Of a DNA stretch of 20,182 nt, positions 420 to 13,829 are shown in pieces (the first letter of the stretch is position 1; every line of letters starts with the position of its first letter). A program made the translations under genes and the position numbers. The notes beneath the pieces are model-generated. The model was not told the DNA's origin. It did no database searches and saw nothing but the letters and a program-made list of their open reading frames with translations. Source of the stretch: a virus; the IMG/VR virus record IMGVR_UViG_3300025695_000125, positions 1 to 20,182 of that record. One strand, written 5' to 3'.

Positions 420-1112
420 ATGGGGAGAATAGAATTAGAAGTACCAGCATCTCTTGAGGCGATAACCCTTGGGCAATATCAACGTTATCTAAAAATATTA
501 GATGACAACAAGGGAGATGAGTACAATGACTTTGTGAATAAGAAGCTCGTTGAGATATTCTGTAATGTTAATCTGAATGATGTGGAGTCAATCCCAGTTG
601 TTGAGTTTGACAAGATACTAAATATCATCCGCAAGGCCTTTGAGGAGAAGTATTCGCTCCAGAGACATTTTGAAGTTGGAGGAGTTGAGATGGGTTTTAT
701 ACCAAAGCTTGACGATATGAGTTTAGGGGAGTATGTTGATGTAGAAGCTACAATTTCAGATTGGCAAGAGATCCATAAAGCAATGGCGGTTCTATACCGA
801 CCAGTGAACTTTAAGAGTAAAGACAGGTACACCATAGCTCCCTATAAGCCGAATGATGAACTGAGGGAGTGGATGAAAGAAATGCCGTTAAGTGTTGTGA
901 TGGGAGTTATGGTTTTTTTTTACGATTTAGGGATCGAGTTATCGAAAGCTTCCCTTCATTATTTGGAGATGGAGATGAAGAAAGCCAAGACCTCTCGGCT
1001 CAGGGAAACTTTGGGAAAAAATGGGGTTGGTATCAGTCAATTTATGGACTCGCTAAAGGAGACCTCAGCAAGTTTGACAAAGTTACAGAAGAACCACTTT
1101 TTAAATGCTTAA
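420..1112 (+). CDS. Tail assembly chaperone, 0-frame product (gpG-like)
   Basis: This 230-residue cytoplasmic protein is the probable counterpart of lambda gpG, the chaperone that coats the tape measure during tail assembly. The assignment rests mainly on gene architecture: a second conserved-looking reading frame overlaps its 3' end and is reachable by a -1 shift at a canonical slippery site (1013-1022). The N-terminal part has a helical start (residues 13-30), an LYRPV motif (125-129) and a hydrophobic segment PLSVVMGVMVFFYDLG (156-171), all of which I associate with this family in flavobacterial phages. Residues 201-230 are made only without frameshifting. The ATG at 420 is the first in frame after the -7 box at 378. 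It lies more than 6 kb from the tape measure, unlike lambda, where G-T immediately precedes H. Confidence 0.7.
   Translation: MGRIELEVPASLEAITLGQYQRYLKILDDNKGDEYNDFVNKKLVEIFCNVNLNDVESIPVVEFDKILNIIRKAFEEKYSLQRHFEVGGVEMGFIPKLDDMSLGEYVDVEATISDWQEIHKAMAVLYRPVNFKSKDRYTIAPYKPNDELREWMKEMPLSVVMGVMVFFYDLGIELSKASLHYLEMEMKKAKTSRLRETLGKNGVGISQFMDSLKETSASLTKLQKNHFLNA
1013..1022 (+). promoter_or_regulatory. Slippery site for -1 ribosomal frameshift
   Basis: In the frame of the gene starting at 420 the codons read ttG GGA AAA AAT. This contains two overlapping X XXY YYZ heptamers, G GGA AAA (1013-1019) and A AAA AAT (1016-1022). The first differs from the lambda G-T site GGGAAAG only in its last base. The site lies directly before the downstream frame's conserved-looking segment KKWGWYQSIYGLA. 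The only nearby downstream hairpin I see is weak (AGTC/GACT, 1035-1050). Confidence 0.7.
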
Positions 1113-1183
1113 TGTATCTAACATTTGAAAAGGAGAAAAACGAATTAGAAGCAGCTATGATAAAAAAATCAATGAGGAGATGA
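1019..1183 (+). CDS. C-terminal extension of tail chaperone made by -1 frameshift (gpT-like)
   Basis: Read in the -1 frame relative to 420, this segment adds 54 residues (starting KWGWYQSIYGLA, ending MIKKSMRR) to the first 200 residues of the chaperone, giving a fusion of about 254 residues analogous to lambda gpGT. In lambda the T part bridges the chaperone-coated tape measure to tail tube subunits. The extension looks like real protein: an aromatic WGWY start, then a helical segment FEKEKNELEAAMIKK rich in charged residues. The open frame runs back to 869, but a separate start there would give an unconvincing N-terminus, so production by frameshifting is preferred. Its TGA overlaps the next ATG (ATGA, 1180-1183), suggesting translational coupling. 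Confidence 0.65.
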   Translation, partial: KWGWYQSIYGLAKGDLSKFDKVTEEPLFKCLMYLTFEKEKNELEAAMIKKSMRR

Positions 1184-7367: not shown

Positions 7368-7516
7368 TAAAGCAAATATTAGAGTTACTGGCAATAGATA
7401 ATTGGTACGGAGTATCAGAGAATATAGATATTGCGAAAGGTAAGTATAGAGCTTGCGGTAATATGGTGGATGTCAAGGAACAATTAAAGAGAGCAAGATA
7501 TGGCAGCGGAAAATAA
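7364..7516 (+). CDS. Small conserved-looking protein between hub and tape measure
   Basis: A 50-residue frame beginning MIKQILELLAIDNWYG and ending KRARYGSGK. Its ATG overlaps the stop of the preceding tail gene (ATGA) and its 3' end overlaps the tape measure start by 17 bases, the spacing expected of a translated gene in this operon. It starts with a hydrophobic helix, then NWYGVSENIDIAKGKYRACG and a basic C-terminus. Without it there would be a 132-base gap in an otherwise gap-free module. No function is recognised; a tape-measure accessory or small structural protein is possible. Confidence 0.6.
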   Translation: MIKQILELLAIDNWYGVSENIDIAKGKYRACGNMVDVKEQLKRARYGSGK

Positions 7517-9530
7517 AAAGATAATAGTATCTATAGAGGTCAAGGGAACAGGTGCTGAAGCTGTATCTAAATCTACGCAGAAAGCCACCCAAGACCTAAG
7601 TAAACTAACTGAAGCTGAGATTAAACAAAGAATTGAAGCGGAGAAACTAAAAATAACAAATGCAGCCGTAGCCGCATCATTTAAAGAACAAGCCGCATCT
7701 CAATTAGCTGCTGCGAATTCAGGCAAACCATTTAGAGCACAAGCTGGTCTTAACAACGCCATATTGCTTGAAACCTCTCGATTAGCTTCTGATGCTGGTT
7801 ATGGATTTACAGCTATTGCAAACAACCTTTCTCAAGTAATAAGTTTATTTTTTAGTTTTAGTAAAACTGCTGGAGGAGTTGTAAATTCATTAAGGCAATT
7901 AGGAAGAAGTTTGCTTGGCAGTGGAGGTATCTTGATTGCAATTCAATTACTTATTGCTTTTGGTGATGATATATACAACTTCTTCTTTGGAGCTTCAAAG
8001 GCTGCCGATGAATTTAAAAAGAAAATAGATGAATTAACAAAATCTATTTCTAATCAAATAGGATTGTTTGATAGACTTGTAACTGGTCTTGTTAAATTTT
8101 CTACATCTGGAAACGCATTAAAAGATACTGTTTCATTATTATCAAATAGATTTTCTAAGTTTGAGAATGGAATGAAAAGACTAAAAGAACAAGGGCTTGA
8201 TCAAAATGATGATGCTGTAAAAAATTTAGTTAATTCTTTTGGTAGATTATTAAATGTAGAAAAAGAACTTATAATAGCTGACGAAAAATACAAAAAAAGC
8301 TTAACAGAACAAGGTAAGGAAACAAAAGAATCCATAAAACAAAGAGGAATATTTAATCAACTCTTAAGGGAATTAATAGAACTTGAGAAATTATTTGAAT
8401 TAGAAACTAAAAAAGGCACTAAATCTACTCAAAGGAGAAATAAGGCTTTTAGAGAGGGTGATTTAGATTTTGAACAAGAAAGACAAAAATCAAGAGAAAG
8501 GGTACTTAGGGATCTAACAAAAAGTGAAGAGTCTCAAACCATAATTCAATTCCAGGGAATTAGAGATAGGGCAAGGATAAAAACTCAAGAATTTAAAGAT
8601 GACCAAAAAAGAAGACTTGATGCCTTTTTAAAGACAATAGAAAATGACAAAAACTATGAGGAACAAAAAAAGGAGGCAACTGAAAGTTTTAATAAGTCTA
8701 TAAGAGAAGCTGAAGAAGAATTACTTTCTTACATTTTACAAATTAATAAAGAACAAGCAGTTGCTCTACAAAATCTGACAATAGAACAGTCTCGTCAATT
8801 ATTAGACTTTTATAGAAAGAGGGATCAAGATTTAGCTGTATTATCCCAAAAAAGGGATGACCAAGAAATATTAAATGAAGGTATAAAAGCTGGAAATCTT
8901 CTGGAGTTAAGGCAAAATCAGTTAGAATCTGATAGGCTGTTTATACAGCAAAGATTAGATAGCGAAAACTTATCTTTCAAGGAGAGAGTTAGACTACAAC
9001 AAGACTTAAGTAAAGTTGAAGACGAACAGGCTACAATAAGAATAAGAATAGCTGAGGCAGAGGCTCAAGGAAAAAGAGAATTATTGAATCAAGTAGGAAA
9101 TGCTTTAAATGCCTTTTCTGATTTAGCTGGTAGAGAGACTGAAACAGGTAGAGCTTTAGCGATAACCTCTACTCTTATATCGACATACTCCGCAGCTCAA
9201 AAAGCTTTTGAATCTCAATTCCTTCCTATACCAACATCCTCAAGTCCAATAAGAGGAGCTTTAGCAGCAGCGGCAGCGGTTGCAAGTGGGTTAGCAAATG
9301 TTAGAGCTATAGAATCTGGAGGAAGAACAAGGCCATCTACCGCTAAATCTCAAGTAACTGTAGAAGCACCAGACTTTAATGTGGTTGGAGCTTCTCCAGA
9401 AAGCCAGTTAGCACAGTCTGTAGCTGAACAACAAACTAAACCTATAAAAGCCTTTGTAGTGGGTAAAGACGTAACTACTCAACAAGAATTAGATCGCAAT
9501 ATTAGAACAACTGCTGGATTAGGCGGTTAA
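7500..9530 (+). CDS. Tail tape measure protein
   Basis: A 676-residue protein that sets tail length and is packed in the tail lumen. The N-terminal region is Ala/Lys/Glu-rich and helical. Residues 94-112 (RLASDAGYGFTAIANNLSQ) match a motif I associate with phage tape measures, followed by a hydrophobic segment (about 142-165, GILIAIQLLIAFGDDIYNFF) that could insert into a membrane during DNA entry. Residues about 170-530 are long charged coiled-coil sequence. A second hydrophobic Ala-rich stretch lies near 580-595. The C-terminus has DFNVVGASPESQLAQ and KAFVVGKDVTTQQELDRNI, typical of Bacteroidetes phage tape measures. At the usual 0.15 nm per residue the tail would be about 100 nm. No sheath gene is recognised, consistent with a siphovirus-like tail. 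Confidence 0.88.
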   Translation: MAAENKKIIVSIEVKGTGAEAVSKSTQKATQDLSKLTEAEIKQRIEAEKLKITNAAVAASFKEQAASQLAAANSGKPFRAQAGLNNAILLETSRLASDAGYGFTAIANNLSQVISLFFSFSKTAGGVVNSLRQLGRSLLGSGGILIAIQLLIAFGDDIYNFFFGASKAADEFKKKIDELTKSISNQIGLFDRLVTGLVKFSTSGNALKDTVSLLSNRFSKFENGMKRLKEQGLDQNDDAVKNLVNSFGRLLNVEKELIIADEKYKKSLTEQGKETKESIKQRGIFNQLLRELIELEKLFELETKKGTKSTQRRNKAFREGDLDFEQERQKSRERVLRDLTKSEESQTIIQFQGIRDRARIKTQEFKDDQKRRLDAFLKTIENDKNYEEQKKEATESFNKSIREAEEELLSYILQINKEQAVALQNLTIEQSRQLLDFYRKRDQDLAVLSQKRDDQEILNEGIKAGNLLELRQNQLESDRLFIQQRLDSENLSFKERVRLQQDLSKVEDEQATIRIRIAEAEAQGKRELLNQVGNALNAFSDLAGRETETGRALAITSTLISTYSAAQKAFESQFLPIPTSSSPIRGALAAAAAVASGLANVRAIESGGRTRPSTAKSQVTVEAPDFNVVGASPESQLAQSVAEQQTKPIKAFVVGKDVTTQQELDRNIRTTAGLGG

Positions 9531-9540
9531 TTTAAAAGAT

Positions 9541-10881
9541 ATGAGAATTATAGAATTACTTATTGATGAGGATGAATTGTTATCAGGTATCGAAGCTATC
9601 TCTATAGTTGACCGACCAGCAATTCAAGAGCACTTCGTTGCGTTAAACGAGCATCAAAGACATCAACTTGCTGAAGTTGACAAAGAAAAAAGAATATTAA
9701 TGGGAGCTGCCTTAGTTCCAAATAAACACATCTATAGAGCCGATGGTGATGAGGAGTACTATATTTACTTCTCAGAAGATACTGTTAGAAAAGCCTCCGA
9801 ATTATTCTTAATGAGGGGGAATCAAAACAAATCTACTCTTGAACATCAAGCTGAACTCCACGGCCTATCAGTTGTAGAATCTTGGATAGTGGAAGATGAG
9901 GTCCACGACAAGAGCGTAAAATATGGAATGGAACTTCCAGTAGGGACTTGGATGGTTTCAATGAAAGTAAACAATGAAGATGTTTGGGAAAATTATGTTA
10001 AGACTGGTTTGGTCAAAGGTTTCTCTATTGAGGGATATTTTACTGATAAGGTTAATATGGCAGAGGTCCAAAGTATTGATGAGAGTGAGGCGAATGAAAT
10101 ACTTTTAGAAGTTCAGGATTATCTTGAAGAAAAGATGTTAAAGCTTAAAACTTATAGCGATTATCCTGAAGGAGTGGTAAGCAATGCAAAAAAGGTTCTT
10201 GAATGGGTAGATAAAAATGGATGGGGTTCTTGTGGGACTGCTGTTGGGAAACGCAGAGCCTCCCAATTAGCCTCCAAATCCAATCTAACGGTCTCAACGA
10301 TAAAAAGGATGTATAGCTTCCTATCTCGCCACGCAAAGGATTTAGAAGTCTCTAAAAGCTATTCTGATGGATGCGGTAAATTGATGTATGATGCCTGGGG
10401 AGGAAAAGCTGCTCTACGATGGAGTAGAAGTAAACTAAAAGAATTAGGAGAAATAGATTTAGCAGAGGTTGATGAGAAGGGAAATGTAAAGTCCAGTCCT
10501 AAGGCCCCTAAGTCTGATACTCCAAATCCATCTCCAAAAGGAGAAGGTACGGCTAAAGGAGACGCATCTGGTAAAAGAGGTGCTAAGGTTTCCGAGAAAG
10601 ATAAAGCCACTCTAAAAAAGAAAGCAGATGATTTCAATAAAAAATATAAAGATAAATTGGGTTACGGTGTCAGTAGTAGTGTTCTCGCTTCTGTTTATCA
10701 ACGTGGCTTGGGAGCTTTTAATACAAGTCATAGCCCTAAAGTTAGATCGGCTTCTCAGTGGGGTTTTGCGAGGGTTAATGCCTTTTTATACTTAGTAAGA
10801 AACGGCAGGCCTCAGAATCCAAAGTACACTACCGATTACGATTTGCTCCCAGAAAAACATCCTAAATCAAATAAAAAATAA
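9541..10881 (+). CDS. XkdF-like prohead protease with two extra C-terminal domains
   Basis: A 446-residue protein with three parts. Residues 1-170 form an XkdF-like (S78-type) prohead serine protease: SIVDRPAIQEHFVALN, RILMGAALVPNKHIYR (51-66), STLEHQAELHGL with candidate catalytic His102, and VKGFSIEGYF with candidate nucleophile Ser162. This enzyme would cleave scaffold and capsid during maturation. Residues about 206-300 form a second domain with GWGSCGTAVGKRRASQLA (227-244) and GCGKLMYDAWGGKAALRW (277-294), seen in various phage and microbial proteins. After a basic, Pro/Gly-rich linker (317-350), residues about 355-440 resemble DUF5824 (VYQRGLGAFNTSHSP, QWGFARVNAFLYLVRNG, DYDLLP). The later domains have no assigned chemistry; they may act in maturation or be released. 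It sits 10 bases after the tape measure and overlaps the next gene (TAATG). Confidence 0.82.
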   Translation: MRIIELLIDEDELLSGIEAISIVDRPAIQEHFVALNEHQRHQLAEVDKEKRILMGAALVPNKHIYRADGDEEYYIYFSEDTVRKASELFLMRGNQNKSTLEHQAELHGLSVVESWIVEDEVHDKSVKYGMELPVGTWMVSMKVNNEDVWENYVKTGLVKGFSIEGYFTDKVNMAEVQSIDESEANEILLEVQDYLEEKMLKLKTYSDYPEGVVSNAKKVLEWVDKNGWGSCGTAVGKRRASQLASKSNLTVSTIKRMYSFLSRHAKDLEVSKSYSDGCGKLMYDAWGGKAALRWSRSKLKELGEIDLAEVDEKGNVKSSPKAPKSDTPNPSPKGEGTAKGDASGKRGAKVSEKDKATLKKKADDFNKKYKDKLGYGVSSSVLASVYQRGLGAFNTSHSPKVRSASQWGFARVNAFLYLVRNGRPQNPKYTTDYDLLPEKHPKSNKK

Positions 10882-13277: not shown

Positions 13278-13829
13278 ATGGCTTGTGATTTAACTGGTGG
13301 AAGATTAAAACCTTGTAAAGATGCTGTAGGTGGTATCAGAAAGATTCACTTTGTTGACTTCGGAGACTTGGGAACCGTAACTTTAGGTTCAAGTGATGAA
13401 GTAACTGATATGGATGGAACTTTCTCTTACCATACTTACGATGTCAAAGGCAATTCTTCCTTAGAGACAAATATTCAGACTTCCTTGGAGAATGGAACTA
13501 CCTTCTTCGAGCAAGTACTAAACGTAACGCTACACAAACTTACTAAAGAGGACAACAAAGAGCTTAAACTTATGGCTTATGGAAGACCTCACGTTTTTGT
13601 AGAAACATTTGATGGCAATTTATTGTTGGTTGGTAGAGAACACGGAGCTGAAGTAACTGGCGGTACTGCTGTTACTGGAACTGCAATGGGTGATCTTCAA
13701 GGATACACTCTTACTCTTACTGCTAACGAGATAACTATGCCTAACTTTGTTGATGGAGCTACTTCAGCCGATCCTTTTGCTGGTATGGCTTCTGCTACTG
13801 ATAGTCAATCTACTCAGCGTGCTGTGTAA
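13278..13829 (+). CDS. Major tail tube-like protein
   Basis: A 183-residue protein that I associate with a conserved Bacteroidetes phage family. It starts with MACDLTGGRLKPCKDAVGG, including two cysteines, then IRKIHFVDFGDLGTVTL. The middle has YDVKGNSSLETNIQTS (54-69), ENGTTFFEQVLNVTLHKL (71-88) and a segment KELKLMAYGRPHVFVETFDG; the end carries GTAMGDLQGYTLTLTANEI. This alternating strand pattern with one central helix, plus amphipathic Gly/Thr-rich loops, is what tail tube subunits show, and an abundant virion protein is expected from its own terminator and from capsid-like codon choice. A head decoration protein is the main alternative. Both flanking terminators suggest it is transcribed as its own unit or as a read-through product of capsid transcription. 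Confidence 0.6.
   Translation: MACDLTGGRLKPCKDAVGGIRKIHFVDFGDLGTVTLGSSDEVTDMDGTFSYHTYDVKGNSSLETNIQTSLENGTTFFEQVLNVTLHKLTKEDNKELKLMAYGRPHVFVETFDGNLLLVGREHGAEVTGGTAVTGTAMGDLQGYTLTLTANEITMPNFVDGATSADPFAGMASATDSQSTQRAV

Follow-up and report, generated by a model that had tools for sequence, protein, structure and literature searches.

The question raised by this locus is where, and by which machine, the reading frame changes in a phage gene whose end appears to be read in two frames. The window, that is, the whole stretch of DNA analysed here, comprises the 20,182 bases of a virus record of the IMG/VR type. The earlier note had seen in it a lambda-like G/GT pair produced by a -1 shift at two overlapping heptamers. 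The idea that -1 recoding yields a pair of tail chaperones, and that both frames are coding, is well supported, but the site assigned to the shift was wrong, and the lambda mechanism is not established. The run of Ts proposed here as the slip site is located about 100 nt upstream of these heptamers (Table 1).

Table 1. Positions in the window of the gene, its putative slip site, and associated features
Feature	Positions	Strand	Basis
0-frame gene (G-like), 230 aa	420..1112	+	ORF; relatives; phrog_32199; AF2 pLDDT 85.3
Run of nine Ts, putative slip site; GTT TTT TTT TAC, translated V F F Y	913..921	+	At least 9 T in 317/317 unique relatives
-1-frame extension (T-like domain)	914..1183	+	Conserved -1 peptide in alignments; AF2 pLDDT 86.7; without conserved start
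Dual-coding overlap: -1 frame together with residues 168-230 of the 0-frame product	921..1109	+	Codon-position rates; stop/shadow simulations
TTTA(G)-type conserved motif; TAG at 928-930 stops the third frame just past the run	927..930	+	214/223 relatives
Overlapping heptamers GGGAAAA/AAAAAAT, incidental	1013..1022	+	Not conserved: 3/217 and 38/217
ATGA stop/start coupling, -1 frame to next gene (1180-1671)	1180..1183	+	ATGA at the -1 stop, 159/223 relatives
Tape measure protein, 676 aa, 6.3 kb downstream	7500..9530	+	Homology to gp50 of a Nonlabens phage (E 4e-14)

The Site of the Frame Switch

Five scans of IMG/VR, one scan of genomes, and a tblastn search against phage records yielded 353 relatives, 317 of which are unique around the site; all counts given over these relatives are counts of related sequences, without independence between events. 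The run at the slip site has nine Ts in 264 of the 317, ten in 52, and twelve in one, and in none of them is it shorter than nine. Three phases of the run with respect to the codons are found, namely XTT TTT TTT T, TTT TTT TTT, and, in a single case, AGT TTT TTT TTG; judged from these sequences, it is the length of the run that is kept and not its exact codons. Elsewhere in the coding sequence of the same loci, such long U-runs hardly occur: about 1.4 Mb contains 4 with a length of nine or more. Where the codons are XTT_TTT_TTT, which supply eight Ts, the next base is T in 295 of 295 loci; the codon thus begun encodes Y, W, C, L, F, or S, and every one of the 30 Leu codons in this place is TTR. 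Where the codons are TTT_TTT_TTT, which supply nine, the next base is T in 13 and C in 8 of 21 loci, all eight of the latter being Leu CTN. This difference in the next base after eight and after nine Ts indicates that the conserved property is a length of at least nine and not the heptamer. Irrespective of the slipping machine, which is no part of this claim, the sequences make it very probable that the frame is recoded at the T9 run, giving rise to a chaperone-like pair with dual coding.

The heptamers singled out by the earlier note do exist: the 0 frame reads TTG GGA AAA AAT at 1011-1022 and contains two in-phase X_XXY_YYZ heptamers, GGGAAAA (1013-1019) and AAAAAAT (1016-1022), beyond which it extends for 30 codons, to 1112. 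A frame shift there would have canonical heptamers in the correct phase to work with, yet among the 217 unique relatives that have the KWG motif, an X_XXY_YYZ heptamer occurs at the first position in only 3 and at the second in 38. Homologues without the slippery heptamer, which had been set beforehand as grounds for giving up this site, have thus been found, and the heptamers fail as the slip signal; AAAAAAT itself is accounted for by AAA AAA TGG, which encodes KKW in the -1 frame. Moreover, a shift at 1013-1022 would leave untranslated the -1 stretch 914-1012 (segment ovA), which is conserved, with its YPELF motif and F5, and which has the codon-position pattern of dual coding. A switch at these heptamers is therefore highly improbable.

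The Two Products and the -1 Domain

Residues 1-167 of the 0-frame gene are common to both products; with 87 residues from the -1 frame, the predicted fusion product has about 254 aa (GT-like), beside the 230 aa of the 0-frame product (G-like). The fusion junction reads MVFF followed by LRFRDRV... The -1 frame is protein-like from 914 on, inside the T9 run, where it reads FFLRFRDRVIESFPSLF..., and it is there that conservation begins; past the heptamers, it reads GKKWGWYQSIYGLA... and meets its stop at 1181-1183, within the ATGA that couples it to the next gene, as had been pointed out earlier. The third frame is shut within 2-5 codons of the T run in 214 of 223 relatives. The best description that PHROGs offers of the 0-frame protein is phrog_32199 (E 8e-23), a family of unknown function. 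Upstream of the gene, the non-coding positions 240-380 are rich in AT and contain several near-repeats of CTAAGTATAATA; this is a possible promoter or regulatory region.

Among the relatives, the domain encoded past the T run is conserved, has 81-93 residues with the pattern FFLxFRxR...KWGWYQSIY...EKEKxELE, and ends in ATGA. Its peptide runs straight on from the T run, with F1, F2, and F5 invariant and WGWY conserved in the alignments. AlphaFold2, run on alignments of relatives, models the domain as all helical, and no useful PDB match was found for this model.

One explanation of the two frames is that two genes merely overlap, the -1 ORF being a gene in its own right with its own start, for example, the GTG at 869. 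A mechanical ORF, 869-1183, exists, and in a Nonlabens phage the corresponding gp41 is annotated as a gene of its own. Against this, the -1 frame is shut three codons or fewer upstream of the T run in 25 of 223 relatives, the -1 peptide has no Met in 45 of 223, the positions of Met are not conserved, and the conservation of the protein starts at the T run itself, all of which makes a separate gene very unlikely. No conserved start of the -1 frame was found in the 223 relatives, and stops in this frame were found in none of the relatives except locus L030, such that neither a conserved start nor interruption by stops, both named in the earlier note as telling against a frameshift, applies here. 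The stop in L030 (6483-6590) lies shortly before KWGW and represents a sequencing error or a broken copy. Another possibility is slippage at the level of the DNA, a form of phase variation in which the run would vary among phage genomes and a subpopulation would carry fused genes. Runs of nine Ts are mutable in replication, which counts in its favour; however, no genomic fused ORF is present in the 317 unique relatives, and all the observed run lengths and phases preserve the same 0 frame, which leaves phase variation hardly credible.

Dual Coding of the Overlap

Past the T run, the 0 frame of the relatives stays open for another 55-80 codons or so, and the overlap has a median length of 178 nt. 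In the window, substitution rates and simulations show constraint on both frames across some 190 nt (914-1109); the proposal that two peptides are encoded in the overlap is thereby upheld, but the earlier figure of about 90 bases was too low. Rates of substitution by codon position were obtained from 69 non-overlapping pairs of related loci. For positions 3, 1, and 2 of the 0 frame, respectively, they are 0.282, 0.090, and 0.049 upstream of the T run, 0.105, 0.059, and 0.115 in the overlap, and 0.076, 0.042, and 0.191 past the 0-frame stop, where the last of these is position 3 of the -1 frame. The rate at the third position of the -1 frame in the overlap is 0.60 times (95%, 0.50-0.73) that in the part where the -1 frame codes alone, and 0.41 times the third-position rate in the part where the 0 frame codes alone. 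These rates show that neither frame has its free third position in the overlap.

The 0-frame tail might nevertheless be a mere shadow of the -1 protein, devoid of function. The GVGINQFM of this tail is indeed a shifted reading of WGWYQSIYG, the AlphaFold2 confidence of the 0-frame protein drops to about 50 past residue 190, and two relatives have short tails, of 28 codons from the run in L082, the locus of the Nonlabens phage, and of 10 codons in L197, so a long tail is not required everywhere. However, when the -1 proteins are held fixed and synonymous codons are redrawn, the 0 frame is expected to be open for as long as observed in only about 4 of 223 relatives (in the converse simulation, the -1 frame is expected to be open in about 1.6 of 221). 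The similarity of the 0-frame tails lies above that expected from the shadow of the -1 protein, with a mean z of about 3-5, and in diverged relatives, with 55-65% identity in the -1 protein, the first part of the tail has an identity of 0.41 versus the 0.23 expected as a shadow. Together with the reduced variation at the -1 third positions, these results indicate selection on the 0-frame tail; in addition, the modelled helix 157-192 crosses the slip point, mostly at high confidence. A functionless shadow is thus unlikely, though less so than the separate gene or phase variation, and selection on both frames is the preferred reading.

Slippage of the Polymerase or of the Ribosome

The shift most likely results from slippage at the homopolymer itself: at the T9 run, a minority of the products would change to the -1 frame, and most would be the 0-frame protein, the minority share of the fusion being presumed. 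In G/GT pairs, assembly depends on unequal amounts of the two products. An important question is which machine slips, since RNA polymerase slippage and -1 ribosomal slippage would yield an identical fusion protein. From the sequences, RNA polymerase slippage, which would put one extra U into the mRNA, is the somewhat favoured cause. Programmed transcriptional slippage yields a mixture of transcripts in which U is inserted or deleted; it calls for a homopolymer of about nine or more A or T in any phase, and runs of T9, T10, and T12 in three phases are what is found here; T runs longer than 8 are in the known range for transcriptional realignment (PMC3711429).

The other explanation is a classical, tandem -1 programmed ribosomal frameshift of low efficiency on U_UUU_UUU (914-920), in the manner of lambda gpG/gpGT and without slippage of the polymerase. 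An in-phase X_XXY_YYZ heptamer, T_TTT_TTT, is present at these positions within the run and likewise in every relative, which is inevitable in any T9 run. The tail-chaperone frameshifts characterised to date are described as ribosomal and low-level, and strong RNA stimulators may be dispensable for them (PMC5009743); in an HK97-like cluster, an efficiency of 6-7% has been measured (PMC3711429). On the other hand, seven in-phase Ts suffice for the ribosome, and a version with eight would retain the heptamer, yet no run of seven or eight Ts is seen in the 317 relatives, and the loss of one flank is offset by the extension of the other, such that nine Ts remain. Nor was a downstream stimulatory structure, a common but not obligatory companion of ribosomal frameshifting, found: in 10 representatives, the RNA (folded without pseudoknots) folds no better than shuffles, with z from -0.83 to +0.95. 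The flanking Ts can, however, be put down in part to amino-acid preferences, i.e., to hydrophobic 5' codons and to Y, W, or L after FF in the 0 frame; because of this, slippage of the polymerase is preferred with restraint, and ribosomal frameshifting is given a considerable, if lesser, probability.

Precedents for slippage of the polymerase are Shigella mxiE and Thermus dnaX, where transcriptional slippage occurs at T9/A9, and which resemble the present case in having a homopolymer of at least nine and in the same fusion product being expected (PMC3711429, PMC5009743). No phage tail chaperone made by transcriptional slippage was found in the literature searched. The broader proposition, namely that in a large lineage of Bacteroidota phages the chaperone ratio is set by slippage of the polymerase on a T run that must be nine or longer, with the next 60 or so codons read in two frames to give different, conserved C-termini, falls just short of being probable.

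Relation to Tail Assembly Chaperones

The gene at 420-1183 appears to encode the tail assembly chaperone pair of a lineage of Bacteroidota siphophages related to the Nonlabens phages P12024S/L, a role that we infer from the gene context, the recoded design with two products, and a weak fold match. The 0-frame protein, modelled by AlphaFold2 from alignments of relatives, has as its top PDB match 2ob9, the tail assembly chaperone of HK97, with Z 4.1 and rmsd 3.8 over 69 residues; this match covers residues 1-78 with 9% sequence identity, and the rest of the protein is unmatched. A match of this kind to a predicted model is suggestive of a tail chaperone but weak, and Foldseek returned no PDB match with E below 0.001 for the same model. 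Searches by sequence against solved structures gave no match, Pfam gave none for the 0-frame or the -1 protein of the window (with scattered weak hits across the family), and PHROGs gave the window protein an unnamed family only, while 6 of 71 relatives match phrog_166, "tail protein", weakly.

The tail assembly chaperones of lambda, gpG/gpGT, were reportedly described by Levin in 1993 and by Xu, Hendrix and Duda in 2004. By analogy with this pair, the part common to both products would form a coat on the tape measure protein, and recruitment of the tail tube protein would fall to the 87-residue helical -1 domain. The likeness lies in the shared N-terminus, the -1 switch into a second domain, and the position among tail genes upstream of the tape measure (PMC5009743); computationally, the conserved T run and the open -1 frame give the switch before the stop of the first ORF by which G/GT recoding is recognised. 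In contrast to lambda, the slip site is a homopolymer of at least nine Ts, the 0 frame continues for about 60 codons past it, and the tape measure gene is 6.3 kb away; no named chaperone family is matched in Pfam or PHROGs. In the SEA-PHAGES training genes, the distance from the slip site to the in-frame stop averages 26 nt (PMC10885494). The assignment of the tape measure gene, and with it the distance of more than 6 kb given in the earlier note, is confirmed by homology to Nonlabens gp50, which in turn has a hit (E 5.6e-12) to phrog_9483, tail length tape measure protein. With several genes in between, the usual though not obligatory order of major tail protein, chaperone, and tape measure is not found. 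Far from the chaperone gene, at 13278-13829, a 183-aa protein of phrog_19091 (unknown function) adjoins a candidate major capsid protein and looks like a candidate tail tube or major tail protein. In the protein at 9541-10881, an XkdF-like protease domain (PF14550, E 8e-16) is accompanied by a match to DUF5824 (PF19141) at the C-terminus.

The same gene pair is found in the Nonlabens (Persicivirga) phages P12024S/L (Inhavirus) as gp40/gp41. In the cultured P12024L, with 33% identity to the protein of the window, the T9 run is the same, with the codons CTT TTT TTT TAT (GTT being replaced by CTT), and so is the -1 domain, which reads FFLSFRERLRDLYPELY...KWGWY. The 0-frame tail differs in having 27 codons, and GenBank lists two separate hypothetical proteins (L082:12001-12695), of which gp41 has its annotated start inside the -1 frame; gp40/gp41 is probably one recoded gene. 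A remote structural relative occurs in Flavobacterium phage 6H (KC959568; L399:10044-10939), where the annotated protein, of 191 aa, ends early and open stretches are present in other frames. In related IMG/VR loci (L400 and L403-L410), there is one uninterrupted ORF of roughly 290-305 codons and no sign of recoding. The early end in 6H probably stems from a break of the frame in the sequence as deposited, and the lineage is probably one without recoding.

Significance

Recoding at the T run is a variant of the known recoding of tail chaperones, in which the new elements are the rule on the length of the homopolymer and the long overlap coding in both frames. An unannotated, recoded gene, probably for tail chaperones, has been identified in a group that counts at least several hundred IMG/VR representatives and a cultured phage. 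The dual-coding overlap is unusually long, and there are signs of selection on both of its frames. The strict rule of at least nine Ts, which goes beyond the heptamer, can help to decide whether a phage morphogenesis gene is recoded in transcription or by the ribosome, and the Nonlabens phage and its host constitute a direct test system for the question of which machine slips.
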